From positions 3,286,001 through 3,350,000 of the forward strand of contig NZ_JAGF01000001.1 in assembly GCF_000526515.1 (NCBI RefSeq): 64,000 bases of DNA, given 5' to 3'. Positions 7,701 to 34,416 of this stretch are shown in pieces; position 1 is the stretch's first letter; the number at the start of each line of letters is the position of its first letter. Origin of the DNA: Cellulomonas sp. KRMCY2 (GTDB taxonomy: Bacteria; Actinomycetota; Actinomycetes; Actinomycetales; Cellulomonadaceae). The notes beneath the pieces were generated by a model. It did no database searches. It saw only the letters and a list, made by a program, of their open reading frames with translations, and was not told the origin of the DNA. A program made the position numbers and the translations under genes.

Positions 7701-9284
7701 GGTGGCGAGGCCGAACGCGACGAGGGCCGCGACCGGCAGTGCGGCGGCCACGACGTCGAGTGCTCCCGACGAGCCGTCGACCGCGTACGGGGCGGTGCGC
7801 CGGGCGATCGCCCAGGCGGCCACGACGGCGAGGGTGGCAGCCGCCCACCGCGGGTCGGCCCAGACCGCCACGAGGCAGGCGAGCAGGCCGAGAGCCGGCA
7901 GGACGACAGCCGGCCGGGCTCCGGTCGGCCTAGGGACAGCCCGGCGCGTCGCCACGTCCAGCAGCACGAGGAAGCCGCCGGCCGCGAGGGCGACGGCCGG
8001 GGCAGGCGCCAGGTGGGTGAGCAGTGCGAGGGTGACCAGCGCCCACCACACGGGTGCCACCACATCGGCCACCGCGTCCGGGACGGCCGGACGGAGCAGG
8101 GCGAGGACGACCAGCAGCAGGACTCCGGTGACGATGACCGGACCGGTCGGCGAACCTTCCGCCGACCAGGTCAGCAGTGCGAGCACGGCCAGCACGACGG
8201 TGCCGGGCACGGCCGCCGTGCGGGCGGGCTCGGCGAGGCGCGCCGACGGCCACCGGCGGGCGGCGAGGAGCGTGAGCACGAGTGCCACCGACGCCGCAGC
8301 GAGCTGGGCGCTGCTGGGAACCGCGACGTCCTTGCCCCCGGGGATCGGTCGCCCGACACCGAGCGTCGCCATCGCCACGGCGAACCAGAGCATCGGCGCG
8401 GCGACCAGGCGCAGCCCGCTGGCGACGTCGTACCTCGACCACACCGCGTACCCGGCACCGGTGACGGCGCAGGCACCGGTGAGTGCGACCGCCAGGGCCG
8501 TCCCGTGCAGGTCGGGCGGCACCGGGAAGCCGTCCAGCACGGAGGTGATCAGCATGACCGGGAGCAGGAAGCCCCCCACCGCCTCGAGGGCCCGACCGAC
8601 GACGACCGCGCCGTGGCGCAGCAGCAGCCTGGCCGCGATGAAGGGCACGGCCGCGCTCGCGAGCTCGGCCACCGGCCGGAGGCTGGGCGTGACGTCGGCG
8701 AAGGCGAAGACGACCAGGCCGAACACCCCGACGAACAGCAGCAGGACGCCGAGGTAGGCCAGTCCGTGCACGCCGAGGTCGGAACCGGTCGCCGTTCGGA
8801 TGCGCGCCCACCGTTGCGCCGACGCGGACGGTTCGCGGACGACGACGGGCCGCGCCCAGGTGCCCTCGGAGCCGGTCTGGCGGTCGGCCGGTGGTGCGGC
8901 GGTCTGCGTGCGCGGGGGCTCGACCGGCCAGGCGACGGGCTCAGGTGCCGTAGCGCGCGGGGCCGTCGCCGGCTGGGGCGCTGCGGAGTCCTGCCTCGCC
9001 TCGCGCGCGAGGTCGCTGATGACGGCGGTGAGGCCGGCCAGCTGCGTCTCGGAGAGGAAGCCCCGGGAGCGTGCCTCGGGCAGGAAGACCTCCTCGACGA
9101 AGACGAGCTCGTGGAGATCGGCCCGGGTGAGGTGCCGACGGACCGGCGCGGCGTCGTGCCAGACCGCGTGCCCGTCGCCGACCCACGCACCCCAGTCCTG
9201 ACCCGACCAGTGCCGCAGCGGAGCCCTGTGGGTCGGGTCCGGATACCACCCGACGGGGGCGCCTCGCCACTGTGCCGGGTCCAT
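4731..9284 (-). CDS. Giant DUF2510 polytopic membrane protein
   Basis: At 1517 residues this is the largest gene in the window. The first about 35 residues form a DUF2510 motif (VGWYPDPTHRAPLRHWSG), a short domain attached to many actinobacterial membrane proteins. A soluble region to about residue 175 includes a proline-rich linker. The remaining about 1,340 residues are almost unbroken hydrophobic segments of Ala, Val and Leu, probably more than 40 helices. The architecture matches SCO7613-like uncharacterised membrane proteins. GGAGG lies 7 nt before ATG 9284. No catalytic motif is evident and its function is unknown. Confidence 0.8.
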   Translation of the reverse strand: MDPAQWRGAPVGWYPDPTHRAPLRHWSGQDWGAWVGDGHAVWHDAAPVRRHLTRADLHELVFVEEVFLPEARSRGFLSETQLAGLTAVISDLAREARQDSAAPQPATAPRATAPEPVAWPVEPPRTQTAAPPADRQTGSEGTWARPVVVREPSASAQRWARIRTATGSDLGVHGLAYLGVLLLFVGVFGLVVFAFADVTPSLRPVAELASAAVPFIAARLLLRHGAVVVGRALEAVGGFLLPVMLITSVLDGFPVPPDLHGTALAVALTGACAVTGAGYAVWSRYDVASGLRLVAAPMLWFAVAMATLGVGRPIPGGKDVAVPSSAQLAAASVALVLTLLAARRWPSARLAEPARTAAVPGTVVLAVLALLTWSAEGSPTGPVIVTGVLLLVVLALLRPAVPDAVADVVAPVWWALVTLALLTHLAPAPAVALAAGGFLVLLDVATRRAVPRPTGARPAVVLPALGLLACLVAVWADPRWAAATLAVVAAWAIARRTAPYAVDGSSGALDVVAAALPVAALVAFGLATDLTTGLVAATATVAAATLPAMHPVLARGDVDRFWRRWWIGAVPVVALWALLAWDLATLPAERWTVIGSVLVLAVLGTVGPTSPVARPWVIAGLAVTAWLMGCVAADIADVTRGVLLGVVALAVVGAAHRSRPAADRTPVEGAHPGRAAASLGLTGHVVAAVSLGLAGPRWGLVTVVALATAGLALTAGRDDRDRSPVGELLAAAGSVLRHLPWALTALGLPVTVWLVLDAAGTLPLDDPWALAVPMGTAVVYAAAARLPLSPRLVTTMVGGSFVAALLALLGTTASRELWTAVVGLACLIAAVLLLPGSRRAAPMVWTAWAAVTPFVGLLAWQTVPWFDALGRLTAAATTLVVVGGTLLVGAAAADLWHRPWVPTPAPRHAWLVAPAFLGALDVCLGLLAVTGPVPGPAAGLLTLFAGTVLLLVGVLARAGVLGAGATLLAWVGTWQLAGPALDARPWVSVAVAAGLLVAGEALYRLTPDRGAWSRWDVPLLVAAGPVALTGLAVAVGGPAHAITFVLIGLEVLTVALRLHRRRALAEVLGWSATILVLVGSGVAGAGWLALALLFLAVAHTGLALRASGDVRVVRQVTGVLAALASWVAALDWFAWSAQHSVDATAAGAGAVTLLVAGLAWLRRTDRTWLVDRSWLHVWGGAAVLVTAVAALTSERSEVVSGAAVEPSGWVLLGLLGVVLGLVAATGALRLPWLRDLAAAVVLAGLMMSFQVGDAAPATQLTVLAAVAAVLAAGTLALSFLSPGSPLARPCAELGGGAAVVAVLTGLVPAPDIGLLAPALAAVTVQAAAIGVAQRSVGLQMLAPALACTSWVLFVKAAIDGGPSWYTVAVGLALLAITAVWRRDRRARGRDAAGPEVVALELAAIAFLVGASFTQAVTQSIVHALVAAGFGVAVAGWGVLTRVRRRVATGAVVVLTALVVLVAVPLVALLPAWGGAGLWLLIAGVGLLAVLIATMIERGRTAVRTTIGRVSSLTAGWE

Positions 9285-27824: not shown

Positions 27825-28937
27825 TCAGCGGGCCGTCGTGTGGTCCTCGAGGGTGGCCAGTGACCAGCACCAGCCGGCGAGCTCGCGGGCGATGGCGACG
27901 TTGGCGATCACGGGTCGCTTGTGGTGTTCGTCGAACCGGACCCAGCGGGCGTGCAGACGCCGGTTCCCCTCGTCACCGCGGGCGCGGGCAGCCGGTGAGG
28001 CCAGGTCCCAGCGGGCCAACATGGTCGCACCGGGTCGGTAGCGGGCCCGGTGGTGCCAGGCTGCTTCGACCAGCAGCCGACGGGCGTGGGTGTTGCCGGT
28101 CTTGGTGATCGAGCCCTGCACCCGGCGGGCCCCCGAGGAGTGCTCGCTGGGGACCAGACCGACGAAGGAGCCGATGGTGTTGCCGGTGAACCGGTGCCAG
28201 TCACCGATCTCGACCGCCAGGGCGAACGACGTCAACGTCGAGACACCCCGCAGGCAGCTCAACCGCCGCACGACCGGGGTGAACTCGCTGTCCGTGGCCA
28301 TCGCGGTGATCGCAGCGTCGAGCCGGTCGCGGCGCGCATCGGTGGCGAGCACGGCGTCGTAGTCGGACTCGAAGGCCATCTGCACCGCCGGGGCCTCGAA
28401 GTGCTGGCGTCGTAGCCACCCGTCGTGGGTCCCGGTCCACGCCTGCCCGCCGTCGTAGACGATCCCGTGGCGCAGCAGCAGCTTCGAGAGCCGGTGCCGG
28501 GCTCGCATCAAGTCCCCGCGGCAGTCCTCTCGCGCCCGGACCAGGTCCCGGGCCGCCTCCTGGTCCTCGGAGGGAATGACCACGGCGGTGATCTCGTCCA
28601 GCCGCAACAGCCGGGCGAGGTGCACCGCGTCCCTGGCGTCGGTCTTGACCCGATCCCCCGACGGTCGCTGCAACTTCGAGGGAGCCGCGACCACGCACCG
28701 AATCCCGTCCGCCTTCAGTGCCCGCGCGAGCCCGAAGCCGGTCGGCCCGGCCTCATACGTCGCCGCGACCGGACCCGGCAACGCGCCTATCCACCCGCGG
28801 ATGTGCTCGTGCGAGGGCGTCAACCTCGCCTGGAACAGCTCGCCCGTCACGCCATCGATCGCAGCCGCCGCGACCGACCGTGCGTGCACGTCGAGCCCCA
28901 CACTCGTACGCTCAGAGAACACCGGGGCCTCCCACAC
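27825..28937 (-). mobile_element. IS110-family element, transposase gene
   Basis: The 370-residue transposase has the N-terminal DEDD (RuvC-like) domain, opening VGLDVHARSVAAAAI with YEAGPTGFGLARAL and DRVKTDARDAVHLARLLR, and the C-terminal Transposase_20 domain with CLRGVSTLTSFALAVEIGD, IGSFVGLVPSEHSSG and GSITKTGNTHARRLL, including the conserved Ser. The frame is intact and starts at GTG 28937. IS110 enzymes recombine DNA guided by an RNA from their non-coding ends. No terminal inverted repeat is seen, as is usual, so the exact ends are unknown. It lies between the RNase H operon terminator and yaaA. Confidence 0.92.
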
Positions 28938-29043: not shown

Positions 29044-29835
29044 CTAGCCGGGCGCGCGCACCACGAGGACCAGGACGTGGCCGCGGGCGCCGCGGTCCTG
29101 GAGCGCGACATCGACCAGCGTCGTCCCGACCAGCTCCCCGGCCACGTCGAGCAGGTCCGTCGGCGTGCGTGGCTCGGACCCGGCCCGCGTCACCAGGTGA
29201 CGCGTGAACAGACCGCGGGTGTGCTTGGCCGAGTGGGACACGATCGTCCGCCTGCCGTCGGCCTCGCGCAGGACGGCGACGGTGACGTGGCCTGCGGCCG
29301 TCGCGGGAACGGACCAGGCGGCGGCGTACGTCGCAGAGCGGCAGTCCACGACCAGCCGCCGCGCCGCGTGCGCGTCGAGCGCCCGGCCGAGCGGCCGGCG
29401 CCAGGATGCCGCGAGCGGACCGACACCGGGCAGGTCGGTCCCCGTCGACAGCCGGTAGGCGGGGATCAGGTCCGCGGGCCCGACCACGCCCCACAGCGCC
29501 GAGATGGTCCGCACGCAGCGGTCCGAACGCTCACGCGCCGCGTCGTCGGGCAGGTCGTCGAGGCGTGCGGCTCCGTAGAGGACACCTGTGTAGACCGCGC
29601 GGGCCGGTGCGGTCGGGGCGGTGCGCAGACCGACGTTGCGGGCCACCTCGCCGGCCAGGGACGGGCCGACGCGGAGCACCGACATCGCCGCGGGGGAGGC
29701 GCTGACGCGGACCAGGGCACCCAGGACGCGCCGTCGATGCGTCGTCAGGAGCGGCGACGACAGTGCGGTCAGATCGACCGGGGCCCCCGTCGTGGGGGCG
29801 GTCTTGCCCTCGGACGGGGGGAGCAGCACGAGCAC
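29044..29835 (-). CDS. yaaA: Peroxide stress protein YaaA (UPF0246)
   Basis: The 263-residue protein starts VLVLLPPSEGKTAP and contains VYTGVLYGAARLDDL, SALWGVVGPADLIPAYRL and SHSAKHTRGLFTRHL, all diagnostic of the YaaA family, which limits iron-driven damage under peroxide stress. GTG 29835 follows TACCCT by 6 nt with no ribosome-binding site (leaderless pattern). It is divergent from rnpB and 56 bp away. Confidence 0.9.
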   Translation of the reverse strand: MLVLLPPSEGKTAPTTGAPVDLTALSSPLLTTHRRRVLGALVRVSASPAAMSVLRVGPSLAGEVARNVGLRTAPTAPARAVYTGVLYGAARLDDLPDDAARERSDRCVRTISALWGVVGPADLIPAYRLSTGTDLPGVGPLAASWRRPLGRALDAHAARRLVVDCRSATYAAAWSVPATAAGHVTVAVLREADGRRTIVSHSAKHTRGLFTRHLVTRAGSEPRTPTDLLDVAGELVGTTLVDVALQDRGARGHVLVLVVRAPG

Positions 29836-29890: not shown

Positions 29891-30287
29891 GATGAGTCGG
29901 CCAGGCGGTCGCGTCGAGGGTGGTCAGCCACCGTCGCCGAGGAACGTCCGGGCTCCGTAGAGCGAGGTGGTGGGTAACACCCACCCGGGGTGACCCGCGG
30001 GACAGTGCCACAGAGAACAGACCGCCCGGTCCGCCAGGCTTCGGCCCGACGGACCGGGTAAGGGTGAAACGGTGGTGTAAGAGACCACCAGCGCACCGGG
30101 TGACCGGTGCGGCTAGGCAAACCCCACCTGGAGCAAGGTCAGACAGGGAGCGTTCGAGGGCTGCTCGCCCGAGCTCCCGGGTAGGCCGCTGGAGGCGTGC
30201 GGCAACGTACGTCGTAGAGGGATGGCCGCCACCCGCGCGGGGGTAACCGCGCGCGGGGACAGAACCCGGCGTATCGGCCGACTCATC
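29891..30287 (+). ncRNA. rnpB: RNase P RNA (type A)
   Basis: The ends pair as GATGAGTCGGCC with GGCCGACTCATC. The conserved core is present: GAGGAACGTCCGGGCTCC near the 5' end, GGGTGAAACGGTGG and AGGCAAACCCC in the middle, and ACAGAACCCGGCGTA near the 3' end. It is the catalytic subunit that matures tRNA 5' ends. Its last 29 bases double as the left attachment repeat of an integrated element and restore a complete gene. Confidence 0.95.
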
Positions 30288-30288
30288 C
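30259..30288. repeat. attL: 30-bp direct repeat in the rnpB 3' end
   Basis: ACAGAACCCGGCGTA, then T, then CGGCCGACTCATCC. It differs by one base from positions 33907-33936. Integration therefore rebuilt the rnpB end. Confidence 0.9.
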
Positions 30289-30313
30289 ACTTTCTGGCCC
30301 CTGACCTGCGCGT

Positions 30314-31417
30314 TTACTGCGCGAAGGGTGCTGCTGTACGCAGGGAGTACGCAAGATTCCCCAGAACTGAGTCGACGGCGGCCCTCGTCCGGTCATCTGA
30401 GTCCGGCCACAGGTGGCTGTAGGTGTCGAGCGTCTCGGCCGCGTTCGCGTGCCCGAGCCTGGCCTGAACGGTCTTCACGGACTCCCCGTGCCGGATCAGC
30501 AGGCTGGCGTAGTAGTGGCGCAGACCGTGGAAGACGAAGCCGTCGACCACCGCCTCCCGACAGACCCGCCGCCACATAGTCCCGAAGTTGCTGCGCCGAA
30601 GCGGCTTACCCTCACCGTTCGTGAAGATCAGACCCAGATGCCCCGCCGGGAAGCGCGCCAGGTGAGCGGCCAGCGCGTCGATGACGACGTCAGGGAGCGG
30701 GATCGTCCGCACGCTCGCTGCCGTCTTCGGAGGCCCGAAGGTCGGCGCTCTGCCTGTGACCGTCGTCAGCTGTCGGTCGATCGTGAGGCTGCGTCGCAGG
30801 AAGTCGACCCGGTCGACTGTGAGCCCGAACGCCTCACCCTGGCGCATCCCGGTACCGGCAGCGAGCACCACGAGCGCGCGGTACCGCTCGGGGACGGTGT
30901 CGATTGGGCGCTGCACCTGCTCGGTCGTGATCGGCTCGACCTGCGCCTTGTCGACCTTCGGCAGGCGGCTGCCCACGCATGGTGACGAGGCGATCCGCCG
31001 ATCCATGACGGCGCTCTTCATCACCGCCGAGAGGTGTCGATGGATCACCCCGACCGTGGCGGGGGCGAGGGTCGCCGAGAGCCGCTTGACCAGAGTCTGC
31101 ACGTCGCTCGGAAGGATGCTCGACAGCGGCCGGTCGCCCAGGTACGGGTAGACGTGCCTGCGGAGCGTGCGCTCGACGTGGTCCTCGGTGCTTGCCCTGT
31201 GTACCTGGCTCGCGCGCCACTGCTCGGCGTACTCGGCGAGAGTGATCCGCCCAGCTTTCGGTGCGACGTACTGACCGGTCACGACGGAGGCTGTGACCTC
31301 GTCGAGCCAACGCTGCCCGTCGACCTTGCGGGCGAAGTGCTTGACGTGCTGCCTCCCTGCGGCGTCCCGGTACCGGGCACGCCACCGGCCGTTCTCATGC
31401 TTGCTGATGGATGCCAT
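30314..31417 (-). CDS. int: Tyrosine recombinase / integrase
   Basis: This 367-residue phage-type integrase has an N-terminal AP2-like arm-binding region (residues 1-55: ISKHENGRWRARYRDAAGR), a SAM-like core-binding domain (TLAEYAEQWRAS onward) and a catalytic domain with R in GTGMRQGEAFGL, HxxR in FHGLRHYYASLL, H in GHANAAETLD and the nucleophile Tyr in TYSHLWP. It joins attP on the element to attB in rnpB. Its 3' end contains two GTACGCA arm-type sites and lies 25 bp from attL. Confidence 0.93.
   Translation of the reverse strand: MASISKHENGRWRARYRDAAGRQHVKHFARKVDGQRWLDEVTASVVTGQYVAPKAGRITLAEYAEQWRASQVHRASTEDHVERTLRRHVYPYLGDRPLSSILPSDVQTLVKRLSATLAPATVGVIHRHLSAVMKSAVMDRRIASSPCVGSRLPKVDKAQVEPITTEQVQRPIDTVPERYRALVVLAAGTGMRQGEAFGLTVDRVDFLRRSLTIDRQLTTVTGRAPTFGPPKTAASVRTIPLPDVVIDALAAHLARFPAGHLGLIFTNGEGKPLRRSNFGTMWRRVCREAVVDGFVFHGLRHYYASLLIRHGESVKTVQARLGHANAAETLDTYSHLWPDSDDRTRAAVDSVLGNLAYSLRTAAPFAQ
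30336..30353. promoter_or_regulatory. Left arm-type integrase sites (2 x GTACGCA)
   Basis: Two GTACGCA heptamers begin at 30336 and 30347, exactly 11 bp apart, inside the 3' end of int. The same heptamer recurs at the right end of the element. Confidence 0.65.
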
Positions 31418-31496
31418 CTCAGTCGCCCTCGCTCAGGTAGCCATCCTTGCGGGCCCGCTGCACGTAGAGGGTTGCGGTGACCTGACCAGCGCCACC

Positions 31497-31528
31497 GAGG
31501 CCCCGACTCCACGCAGAGTCGGGGCCTC
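31497..31528. terminator. Hairpin upstream of int
   Basis: A perfect 13-bp stem, GAGGCCCCGACTC with its complement, encloses CACGCA. It lies in a 336-bp gap (31418-31753) between int and the pentapeptide gene. It could stop transcription from the pentapeptide gene entering int, or shape int expression. Next to int a 20-residue open tail, ending KDGYLSEGD, stops just before the int ATG; it may be a scrap of a lost upstream gene such as an excisionase, but it has no start of its own. Confidence 0.7.
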
Positions 31529-31753
31529 ACCCTTGGGCGCAGGGGAGGGGCGTCCAGATCGCTGCACACCACGAGCACGGAAACTAGCGCCGGTAGCGTT
31601 CCGTCTCCCCCCGAGGCCCACCCCCTCGCGCGCGAGGTAGATGCTTGGCGATCGGATGGACTCCGGAGGGAGCCCTGTTGCTGCTCCGCTATCGAAATGG
31701 TGCCCTGCGAGCGGCGACCCTCATACCCCCACCATCAACGTTGCGTCTTCAAG

Positions 31754-32992
31754 TCAAGAGCGCGGCTCCCCGGCTCCCTCCGGCGTCGCGAGTTCGCGAA
31801 GGGCTTCCGGCACCGTCCCGGGGAAGGTGGCGCGCTCAATCGACCCGCCGTCAAGAAATCTGACGCTCGCGAAAGTTGGAGCATCACCGGAGAACTCGGC
31901 ATCATCGAACCATGCTTTCGCGCGAAAGACGGTGTCCGAAAAGTTGGCTCCGTCGAAGTGTGCGCCGCGGAAGTAGGCATCGCCGTTGTGCACGGCGTCA
32001 GACTGGTGCCCCGCCGTACCGCGAGCAAAGACGCAATGGTCAAACGCCGCGCCGTCGAACTTCGACCGCGAGAACGTCGCACCGTTGGTGAACTGGCTCC
32101 TTGAGAAGGTCGCCCCTTGTCTGAACTCGGCAGAATTTGCCTGTAGTCCTCCAGAGAAATGCGCTCCAATTGCGCCTATTCCCTGGTTGAACACCGTCTT
32201 GTTCATGAGAACAGTTCCGTTGAACCTTGCATAGAAGGCCATGACCTGGCGCTCGAAGCGGGCTTCGTTCAGAACCAACTGCCCGTTAAATTCAGTCATG
32301 ACCATCTGGACATCGTGCTGAAACGTCACCCCCTCAAGGTTGACTGTTCCGTCGAATCGGCAGTTAATCCAACCCAGCCGGTCACCCACCACAATGCCGT
32401 GCAGGTCAAGGTTGTAGGCGCTCCACGATCTCACCGCTGCAGCGGACCTCTGCGTGCGCTGCGCTATTGCCTCGAGAATCGTCTGTTGCACCGGCCCGTC
32501 GCTCGCGCGATTCAGCCTCAAGTAGGCACACATTAGCTGAACGACGGCGGGCCGAAGGCGCGCGGATTCATCTGCCAAGGCGGCAGCGGCGTACACGCCG
32601 GCAAGTCGGATCGCCCCGTCGTCGCTGCCCAATTGCTGTGCAGCCGCGTCGAGCCTGAGGCTGTCGCGTCGGAGTTCCTGCTCCCTCTGCTTCCGGTATG
32701 CGACAGTGAGGGCAACAATTCCACCGAGACCAGCAACGAAGGTTGCTGCCAGTTTCATGATCTCCAGTGAATCAGGGTTTTCTGAGGGCGCGCTTGGCAG
32801 CCAATGCCACACGCCGGTTGCATACCACCGTACGACAGGCACTAGAAGAGCGAGGATCGCTAGCGCCAACCCCGCAACTAGTGTCACCGCAGGGAGGAGG
32901 GGCAACTCCCGGCGGGACAGAGCCGGAGCTGTGGCCCTAAGGCGCCGTCCCCAAGCCTCACGAACACGAGACGCTCGCCGCACCTGAGCCAT
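31754..32992 (-). CDS. Membrane-anchored pentapeptide-repeat protein
   Basis: The 412-residue protein has two N-terminal membrane helices (residues about 30-55 and 80-98), a charged helical linker containing QQLGSDDGAIRLAGVYA and VVQLMCAYLRL, then about 180 residues of pentapeptide repeats with the A(D/N)LXX-like spacing (FDGTVNLEGVTF, FNGTVLMNKTVF, FSGGLQANSAEF, FDGANFSDTVF) that build a right-handed beta-helix. The linker motif is common in actinobacterial pentapeptide membrane proteins of unknown role. ATG 32992 has only a close AAGG. Codon use is less GC-rich than neighbours, fitting its place as cargo of the integrated element. Confidence 0.85.
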   Translation of the reverse strand: MAQVRRASRVREAWGRRLRATAPALSRRELPLLPAVTLVAGLALAILALLVPVVRWYATGVWHWLPSAPSENPDSLEIMKLAATFVAGLGGIVALTVAYRKQREQELRRDSLRLDAAAQQLGSDDGAIRLAGVYAAAALADESARLRPAVVQLMCAYLRLNRASDGPVQQTILEAIAQRTQRSAAAVRSWSAYNLDLHGIVVGDRLGWINCRFDGTVNLEGVTFQHDVQMVMTEFNGQLVLNEARFERQVMAFYARFNGTVLMNKTVFNQGIGAIGAHFSGGLQANSAEFRQGATFSRSQFTNGATFSRSKFDGAAFDHCVFARGTAGHQSDAVHNGDAYFRGAHFDGANFSDTVFRAKAWFDDAEFSGDAPTFASVRFLDGGSIERATFPGTVPEALRELATPEGAGEPRS

Positions 32993-33208
32993 CCTTGGAG
33001 TATGGCGGATTCACCCGGCCGCGTGCGTCTCGCCCTGCCGGGCGCCTACGAACCCGTTGCACCTTGCTGGCACGGCGGTCGCCGCCGCCCCTGCCAGGTG
33101 ATCTGATCGCTCCCCTGGGCGAGTTCATGGTCTCGCAGGGGCGCGGAACGGACGGCTAGCGCCGGACCTGTCGGCGCGTCCCGGCCCGCGCGTACCCCCA
33201 GGGAGCAG

Positions 33209-33658
33209 CTACGAGCCCTTGCCGAGTTCGGCGTTAATGCGAGCCGTGATCGTGTTGACGGCCAACTGCGCTTCGATCGCGTTGCGGTTCCACTCGGGGC
33301 GCGCATCGTCAGCAGCCATCGATTGAAGCTTCTCATCGCTCCCGACGCGCTTTTCCCACTGTGCGGGGACCAGATCTGGTCCGAGGAGTCCGATGAGCGT
33401 CAGTGCCTCCGCGCCCATGCGCTTCGACTCCTCCGTGTTGGTCGAGCCGCCGCGGTTCAGGTTCTCGAGGAGCCGAGCTAGGACCTCGAGGTCGAACATG
33501 AGCTTCGCGTGTGTGAGTGACGCTCGACGGTCGTCCGCTGCGATCTGGCGAGCGTTCTCGCGATCCTTCGCGGAGACCACCAGGGCGATGACGGCGGCTC
33601 CGACGGCTGCCACGGCGACCAGCGTCTGTATCCAGAGGTTCAGTTCTTCCGTTGTCAT
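33209..33658 (-). CDS. Small single-helix membrane protein of the integrated element
   Basis: This 149-residue product has one N-terminal helix (LWIQTLVAVAAVGAAVIALVV) and a cytoplasmic helical tail (DRENARQIAADDRRASL, KLMFDLEVLARLLENLNRG). No family is recognised. It lies upstream of the pentapeptide gene in the same direction, so the two may be one transcript, although 216 bp separate them. The N-terminal helix plus coiled region resembles small accessory subunits, by shape only. Confidence 0.65.
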   Translation of the reverse strand: MTTEELNLWIQTLVAVAAVGAAVIALVVSAKDRENARQIAADDRRASLTHAKLMFDLEVLARLLENLNRGGSTNTEESKRMGAEALTLIGLLGPDLVPAQWEKRVGSDEKLQSMAADDARPEWNRNAIEAQLAVNTITARINAELGKGS

Positions 33659-33775
33659 GCTGGACGGTACCGCCGGCCTCTCACAACGCCGCCGCCCCCG
33701 CCATCGGCGGGTGCAGGACTGCGGTAGGTAGACGACGTCCTCAAGCCCACCGGCCCACCGACGTCGCCGGTCGCT

Positions 33776-33804
33776 GTACGCAGTTTGTACGCAAGAAGTA
33801 CGCA
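33776..33804. promoter_or_regulatory. Right arm-type integrase sites (3 x GTACGCA)
   Basis: GTACGCA begins at 33776, 33787 and 33798, in exact 11-bp steps, about one helical turn each. It matches the two heptamers at the left end in sequence, orientation and spacing. Confidence 0.7.
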
Positions 33805-33906
33805 GAACGGCCGCAGACGCTCAGCGCCTTCCACCGCCCGTCAACGGTGTTTCCGCTGGTCAGGGGCGTGAGCGACCTTCAGGTCGCAGGTCAGGCACCC
33901 GGTCGA

Positions 33907-33936
33907 ACAGAACCCGGCGTACCGGCCGACTCATCC
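33907..33936. repeat. attR: 30-bp direct repeat of the rnpB 3' end
   Basis: ACAGAACCCGGCGTA, then C, then CGGCCGACTCATCC. This is probably the original chromosomal rnpB 3' end, displaced by the insertion. Confidence 0.9.
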
Positions 33937-34041: not shown

Positions 34042-34416
34042 ATGCCCGAGACCAGAGCAGCGCCCGTGGGCGGGATCACGGTGGTCGAGCAGGCCGACTG
34101 CACCGTGGCGCACCTGTGGGGCGAGATCGACGAGTCGCTGCGGGATCAGGCGAGCACGGCGCTGATGCGGGCGCTCGACCGGGACCTGCCCGTGGTCCTG
34201 GACACCAGCGAGGTCCGGTTCATCGACTCGACCGGGGTCGCGTTCCTCATCCAGTTCTGCCGCGTCGGGCGTGACGACGGGCTCTCGGTGCGTCTGCACG
34301 AACCACCGCAGGTGGTCACCGACGTCCTGGAGATGCTCGGGATGCGGGACATGTTCGACGACGAGCCGTCCGGTCGGCGCGAACCCGAGGTGCGGTCCGG
34401 GCCCGTCGTGCGCTGA
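34042..34416 (+). CDS. STAS-domain anti-sigma factor antagonist
   Basis: The 124-residue protein has the STAS fold with the phosphorylatable Ser in RFIDSTGVAFLIQFC, preceded by PVVLDTSEV. Such proteins bind anti-sigma kinases and release an alternative sigma factor when not phosphorylated. GGAGGGGG lies upstream of ATG 34042. No kinase or sigma gene is adjacent. It is the first chromosomal gene after the integrated element. Confidence 0.87.
   Translation: MPETRAAPVGGITVVEQADCTVAHLWGEIDESLRDQASTALMRALDRDLPVVLDTSEVRFIDSTGVAFLIQFCRVGRDDGLSVRLHEPPQVVTDVLEMLGMRDMFDDEPSGRREPEVRSGPVVR

Follow-up and report, generated by a model that had tools for sequence, protein, structure and literature searches.

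A putative compact integrative element at the 3' end of rnpB in Cellulomonas sp. KRMCY2, and related integrases beside rnpB in other Actinomycetota

The rnpB locus and its repeated core

The 64-kb stretch of DNA from Cellulomonas sp. KRMCY2 considered here (the window; coordinates are positions within it) is part of a genome assembled as one contig of 4,495,232 bases. It holds rnpB, the gene for the RNA of ribonuclease P (RNase P), and behind it an insert with a tyrosine integrase gene. An earlier reading of the letters alone (the sequence-only reading) had placed the integrase next to the end of rnpB and had found the last 30 bases of the gene repeated, with one mismatch, beyond a 3.65-kb insert. 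Both observations were reproduced, and the features concerned are as follows.

29893..30289, plus strand: rnpB (RNase P RNA class A), the target gene, its 3' end probably supplied by the element; RF00010 match of 290.2 bits over the full model (1-367)
30259..30288, plus strand: attachment core on the rnpB side, 30 bp inside the rnpB 3' end; 29/30 identical to 33907-33936
30289..33906, no strand: inserted element between the cores; 65.4% guanine plus cytosine (GC)
33907..33936, plus strand: far attachment core, a repeat of the first and probably the displaced native rnpB 3' end
30314..31417, minus strand: tyrosine integrase of 367 amino acids, C-terminus towards rnpB; PF00589/PF22022/PF14659, PHROG family phrog_1 with 254 bits

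The cores differ by a T at 30274 vs a C at 33922, are offset by 3648 bases, and with their outer limits mark the start and end of the finding (30259..33936). No further copy with 10 or fewer mismatches was found elsewhere in the window on either strand, and in the whole genome the core pattern, at up to two mismatches, has exactly two matches and a reversed control pattern none. The window rnpB is the single RF00010 match of the entire genome. The GC content of the insert is below that of the window (71.9%) and of the adjoining 10-kb stretches (72.6-72.7%). No transfer RNA (tRNA) or transfer-messenger RNA (tmRNA) gene presents itself as the target, the two tRNA genes of the window (17490 and 23335) being distant from the cores and a tmRNA gene absent from it. 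The integrase gene ends about 25 bases from rnpB, and its product has SAM-like, central and catalytic domains (Pfam; Phage_integrase 86 bits). Its residues R192, K231, H297, R300, H323, and Y333, which we take to be the catalytic ones, are invariant in a 12-row alignment of relatives.

It is very probable that a compact integrative element has inserted site-specifically at the 3' end of rnpB and that the gene has been rebuilt with the element's end. This reading draws on the repeats, the insert, the intact integrase frame, empty sites in the genus, the recurrence of the arrangement in other genomes and free phages that carry the core, all of which can be read from the sequences themselves. The locus thus appears to have what defines an integrative element, i.e., an integrase with conserved residues, repeats of the target at both ends, relatives with empty sites, and a restored target gene.

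Empty sites were sought at genus level, i.e., in other species, where the following host genes flank the insert in the window.

29044..29829, minus strand: host YaaA-family gene, left flank (domain search)
34042..34416, plus strand: host STAS-domain gene on the right flank; in 4 congeners it follows rnpB at 241-359 bp

In 17 of 18 congeners the 1.5 kb downstream of rnpB contains nothing that matches the window integrase, although one of these, G017, is occupied after all, its element having the integrase at the far end. The host genes to the right of the far repeat follow rnpB in congeners, the STAS gene in four and a metallo-hydrolase gene in three (six genomes together), so the empty rnpB flanks expected in relatives are seen, with 6 of 18 retaining a right-flank host gene. 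Relatives with both repeats and no element, which would have spoken against an insertion, were not seen among congeners; two cores (at most 2 mismatches) occur only in the window genome and in G005, which has an element. Further upstream, about 1 kb before rnpB, lies an IS110-family transposase gene (27825-28937, minus strand).

The base at the mismatch bears on which copy is the old one. It is C in 17 of the 19 rnpB genes of the genus and in the far copy, and T in the window rnpB and in G016. Because the far copy has the base of the genus, the likeliest reading is that it is the old rnpB end and that the copy now in rnpB probably arrived with the element; in that case the exchange would have fallen within the first 15 bases of the core. 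In helix P1, leaving aside one base drawn unpaired by the model, the rnpB copy pairs with the 5' strand at 14 of 14 positions, and the far copy would leave one A-C mismatch. In three other genomes (G187, G189, and G191) rnpB ends in GGCTGG, the next far copy has GACCGG, which is the rnpB-side form of other genomes in their genus, and further far copies vary; a deviating copy in the gene vs a genus-type copy beyond it indicates that elements overwrite the end of the gene. In G191, the case tested, P1 pairs 13/13 and has two G-U pairs beyond those of the native form. These comparisons support the view that a paired rnpB end is restored and not the exact old sequence. The idea that the RNA is preserved by a 3' strand of the element's own agrees with the data: the rebuilt rnpB scores 290 bits with P1 fully paired, and an element origin of the strand is likely in the window and clearer in G187, G189, and G191.

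The following repeats of the attachment region may serve the integrase.

30300..30309, plus strand: CCTGACCTGC, one half of an inverted pair around the core, 11 nt from it; probable integrase-binding site
33886..33895, plus strand: GCAGGTCAGG, counterpart of the above in the inverted pair, with 11 nt between it and the far core
30336..30353, plus strand: two GTACGCA repeats (30336, 30347) at 11-bp spacing, left end; probable arm-type integrase sites
33776..33804, plus strand: three GTACGCA repeats (33776, 33787, 33798) at 11-bp spacing, right end; probable arm-type integrase sites

GTACGCA has three additional occurrences elsewhere on the plus strand of the window. At 33 of 51 related loci a TGACCTG-like motif (four spellings permitted) stands within 45 nt after the rnpB core; the exact heptamer TGACCTG occurs in the first 60 nt behind rnpB in two of the 18 congeners, both occupied (G005 and G017), and in 0 of the 16 others. 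The inverted pair, the GTACGCA repeats and the TGACCTG-like motif are probably all integrase-binding sites. A circular form of the element would carry a core nearly identical to the rnpB 3' end, the integrase would bind this core and the flanking repeats, and strands would be exchanged with the chromosomal rnpB in the 5' part of the core. The gene would then be rebuilt with the 3' end of the element, and the native end pushed 3.65 kb downstream.

Several points weigh against this reading. First, the circular intermediate, the exchange region, the binding sites and any present activity are what we infer, no movement having been observed. Second, the empty sites come from other species, in which the right flank past the core shares gene order and few bases (about ten at best, in L007), and 12 of the 18 congeners have neither host gene within 1.5 kb of rnpB. 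Third, G016 has the T at the mismatch and yet one core only, so the T is no proof of element origin. Fourth, no excisionase was recognised among nine small open reading frames (ORFs) of the element, none of which has a Pfam match up to E 1. Fifth, related integrases are also found at other sites, which means that similarity alone does not predict the target.

Cargo genes and other elements at rnpB in the family

The insert has three convincing genes, all on the minus strand, and besides the integrase these are:

31754..32992, minus strand: pentapeptide-repeat protein of 412 amino acids (cargo), with apparent N-terminal membrane helices; PF13576 78.8 bits, helices by eye
33209..33658, minus strand: protein of 149 amino acids (cargo) from the ORF list, with one apparent membrane helix, by eye

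The 149-residue protein has no family match in Pfam, NCBIfam, PHROG or PADLOC. Relatives of the pentapeptide-repeat protein, all below 60% identity, are found in 89 plasmid records (78 from Streptomyces) and one phage record, which is little informative. A role of the cargo in defence was considered and dropped, as PADLOC found no match to an anti-phage defence model in the three proteins of the element. Genes for replication, relaxase or transfer, packaging and capsid were likewise without a match in the three proteins and, with Pfam alone, in the nine small ORFs. The element therefore would not be assignable as conjugative or mobilizable, as a prophage or satellite, or as a known defence island. 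Because no transfer, replication, packaging or excisionase gene is recognisable, it would probably move only rarely and with help from outside, be it a phage, a conjugative element or DNA uptake.

Insertions at rnpB recur among the 221 family genomes. The nine top-ranking integrase hits, i.e., the window's own and eight more of 52-70% identity, all lie within 6 kb of the rnpB 3' end and face it, and an element or remnant at rnpB was found in at least 27 of the 221 genomes. An integrase homologue or fragment is present in 19 of them (G000, G005, G061, G162, G191, G189, G210, G019, G185, G187, G119, G190, G124, G065, G080, G083, G094, G043, and G017), and eight more were counted on a further core alone, with 0-1 mismatch (G163, G165, G179, G184, G188, G193, G194, and G195). 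The count is a lower bound, as 38 genomes were checked for rnpB position and 30 with a looser pattern that tolerates up to 3 mismatches; reversing this pattern as a control gave one match each in G191 and G183 of the 30 genomes, so that single 3-mismatch matches there may be due to chance. A second core lies on a separate contig in G179 and G019. Core matches on the rnpB strand number five in G162, four in G188, and three in G185, G191, and G193, a pattern as expected from tandem arrays. At four loci (L162, L164, L166, and L171) a series of rnpB-end fragments downstream of rnpB was noted, apparently scars of successive insertions.

The elements at rnpB differ widely in size and content. In G005 the cores are 16.3 kb apart with a portal match and a capsid match below the Pfam cut-off between them, the elements of G185 and G191 have TrwC relaxases, and in G061 the cores are 19.7 kb apart with restriction-associated domains among the genes between. 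At the far end of elements in G083, G094, G043, and G017, 13-57 kb past rnpB, lies an integrase of a second lineage, with about 40% identity to that of the window. An rnpB core lies within 90 bp of this integrase in the first three genomes and 1.2 kb past it in G017. The far-end arrangement of G204 is like that of G083, but its rnpB is on a different contig. The G083 element, of 57 kb, has terminase, major head and tape-measure matches as well as weaker portal and endolysin matches, and appears to be a tailed prophage at rnpB. A far-end integrase with a core after it, in rnpB, was also noted at L036, L039, L041, L042, and L194 (and L176-L178), one of these being a tailed prophage. The window genome itself has a second related integrase (38%; G000:C1:3351830-3352954, L174:2831-3955), about 2 kb past the window end and 35 kb past rnpB, with no rnpB core nearby and no tRNA or tmRNA gene in 17 kb.

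The variety of these elements raises the possibility, tentative but to be taken seriously, that the window element is a stranded remnant, i.e., a larger rnpB-targeting satellite or mobilizable element reduced to an integrase and two cargo genes and now immobile. The lack of replication, relaxase, packaging and excisionase matches is consistent with this, bigger elements with related integrases do occupy rnpB, and integrase fragments remain in G080, G119, G190, and G124. Compact elements with a far core are known from seven loci (2.3-7.0 kb), in four of which (L122, L133, L134, and L147) the integrase is broken or N-terminally shortened. The other three (L081, L082, and L090; 5.3-7.0 kb) retain a full-length integrase, and in the window the integrase frame and residues, both cores, the inverted pair and the arm-like repeats are all intact, which argues against a remnant.

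Related integrases, phages and other targets

Integrases kindred to the window's stand beside rnpB in other genomes too, as a scan of one genome per species shows. The scan, which favours close relatives because of its peptide patterns, gave 155 relatives, of which 80 were kept for the rnpB test, and rnpB lies within 7 kb in 66. It is within 720 bp of the integrase C-terminus, in convergent orientation, at 50 of the 80 loci and at 0.7-7 kb at 11, whereas at five it lies 228-326 bp before the integrase start. The loci with the integrase start towards rnpB (L137, L139, L141, L142, and L124; four of the five in Mycobacteriaceae) show an inverted arrangement at the same site. Among the remaining loci L115 has one weak core only and 13 are without rnpB by this test; five of the 13 (L118, L146, L149, L152, and L153) are either short or lie in part on small contigs, and one more, L158, has an integrase fragment with rnpB 196 bp away in another orientation. 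The latter locus (G234:C1:2756778-2758233), from a Mycobacterium genome, has integrase fragments on either side of rnpB and is apparently a rearranged remnant. The arrangement recurs across the phylum, the record names being nearly all actinobacterial (Geodermatophilus, Blastococcus, Nocardioides, Mycobacterium, Terrabacter, Janibacter, Acidimicrobiia, and others); the two that are not, L083 (an unverified 'Bacillus') and L115 (a 'Bacteroidales' bin), may be mislabelled.

In an even sample of 396 genomes of the phylum, 63 (own genome included) have an integrase match at E 1e-60 or better, and rnpB position was checked in 40 of the other 62. The integrase is near rnpB in G700 (0.4 kb) and G753 (3.5 kb), and in G795, where it lies at a distance of 17 kb past rnpB, a core with 2 mismatches of 30 follows it after 85 bases. 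G266, with its integrase 21 kb from rnpB on the same strand, was considered as a further far-end case and rejected, as no core lies near the integrase. The two strongest matches after the own genome, G752 and G837, are away from rnpB, although broken assemblies may conceal adjacency. It seems that rnpB targeting is widespread but uncommon outside this family. The string AGAACCCGGCGTATCGGTCAACCCATCC, with one mismatch allowed, is present in 10 of 396 genomes of the order, all of one family. Of eight such loci that were fetched, seven are the rnpB end by alignment, and the eighth, which has no rnpB, is found about 0.8 kb beyond an integrase homologue, in a genome that holds another copy.

The core was also met in isolated phages. 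The Arthrobacter phages TripleJ and Kukla (45-47 kb; recorded host Arthrobacter globiformis) have an integrase that is 41% identical to the window's and 47% to that of the G083 prophage, and being nearer to the latter it would belong to the second lineage. In Kukla AGAACCCGGCGTATCGGTCAACCCATCC starts 14 bases after the integrase gene with no rnpB around, and a search with the rnpB end found the same place beside the integrase in both phages (E 0.02). The free phages thus seem to carry an element-borne copy of the rnpB end outside a chromosome. At 12 integrase loci of the IMG/VR database the core was found at up to 3 mismatches in three and at 5 mismatches in one more. At L075 it continues into a full rnpB, and seemingly also at L068, by eye, where the sequence ends too early to call. 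L072-L074, which have no core on either side within the contig, group in the tree described below with integrases inverted beside rnpB.

These observations bear on the notion that homologous recombination or misassembly duplicated the rnpB end and so produced the 30-bp repeat, with the integrase a bystander. Nothing specific speaks for it, save that movement is unobserved, and it is scarcely credible given that integrases abut rnpB at 50 of 80 related loci, that second cores lie at the opposite end of many such elements, and that the same core stands beside an integrase in a free phage.

Site-specific insertion at rnpB is left with the matter of how exclusive the target is. In a quick tree of 100 integrases, from which 6 duplicate rows and 17 short or fragmentary loci were left out, a group of 64 rows around the window (support 93, not starred) comprises 54 rnpB, 3 other and 7 unknown rows; a starred clade of 17 apart from this group is made up of 12 other and 5 unknown rows. 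The labels were given before the far-end elements were found, L036, L039, L041, and L042 being entered as 'other' and L038 as 'unknown', and L071 was labelled rnpB on a weak core (5 mismatches). An rnpB core in fact lies near each of these five far-end integrases, with rnpB 13-57 kb off or on another contig, so that the 'other' count of 22 in the tree is too high by four. Two Blastococcus loci, L103 and L105, have just after the integrase (past position 8110) a sequence that reads as the C-terminal end of secA, which we take it to be, and may represent a change of target, with a coding gene taking the place of an RNA gene. A distance of 100 kb separates L111 from rnpB, and the contigs of L123, L125, and L129 do not carry rnpB; a search of these loci against Rfam gave no RNA gene. 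These loci, together with the position away from rnpB of G752 and G837, could be taken to mean that the integrase is not specific for rnpB and uses various sites of which rnpB is one. This is improbable, since the group of 64 has 54 rnpB rows and the starred clade of 17 none, and the target appears to follow lineage with a few switches. Homologues at other sites had been named as a finding that would undo the proposal, and such homologues do exist at the six loci, all but L105 checked at genome level, while most relatives are at rnpB; the rnpB target is therefore characteristic of the group and not absolute.

Known systems and rnpB as a probable attachment site

Small islands that carry an integrase are familiar from phage-inducible chromosomal islands and other small satellites. 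The closest parallel in mechanism is provided by islands in tRNA and tmRNA genes (Islander, in the part of PMC4383910 consulted; TIGER, PMC12424338), in which an integrase likewise lies beside a structural RNA gene, the 3' end is restored and a displaced fragment marks the far end, whereas the window element targets the RNase P RNA gene. In the TIGER note island targets are classed as tRNA/tmRNA, coding and intergenic (PMC12424338). Actinomycete integrative and conjugative elements (AICEs) share the use of actinobacterial tyrosine integrases at the 3' ends of RNA genes, the vast majority of those with a tyrosine integrase residing at tRNA genes according to the portion of the survey seen (PMC3218068), but the window element is without a recognisable replication or transfer gene. 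Phage-inducible islands, of which mycobacterial ones are described in the consulted part of PMC10654092, resemble the 16.3-kb rnpB element of G005 with its portal and weak capsid match, and the window element differs from them in having no recognisable packaging or replication gene. Phages TripleJ and Kukla have in common with it a related integrase (41%) next to a core that matches the rnpB 3' end, but are phages of 45-47 kb with an integrase of the second lineage.

In the parts seen, the AICE survey (PMC3218068) and the Mycobacterium prophage study (PMC10654092) give tRNA and tmRNA genes as targets and do not mention rnpB or RNase P, and these words are likewise absent from the portions seen of PMC10023795, PMC9934374, PMC12884075, PMC8371274, and PMC4383910. 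In the open papers that do name rnpB or RNase P and were examined, the mentions concern a promoter, phylogeny, references or annotation. Among the matches listed, no report of rnpB as an integration target was found in the open literature, subscription journals and supplements being outside reach. The description of rnpB as a rarely reported target thus holds for the open literature searched; as a site in this family's genomes it is not rare. The mechanism would be an already known one, and the novelty lies in the target, in how widely it is used and in a ribozyme helix being rewritten.

It is reasonably likely that across the phylum Actinomycetota the gene for RNase P RNA serves as an attachment site, a third kind beside the tRNA and tmRNA genes. 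Two or more integrase lineages would use it, as would islands, elements with relaxases, satellites and tailed phages, and each arrival would rewrite the 3' strand of P1, so that mobile DNA would partly govern how the terminal helix evolves. The essential single-copy gene for RNase P RNA would then join the RNA genes that are used as landing sites, and its use would be widespread and not the accident of one genome. This would explain islands beside rnpB that otherwise go uncalled. An integrase family with a largely conserved target may be of use for genome engineering in harmless actinobacteria, and the two isolated phages are a likely laboratory system. The finding also raises the testable question of how harm is avoided when an element overwrites part of an essential ribozyme.

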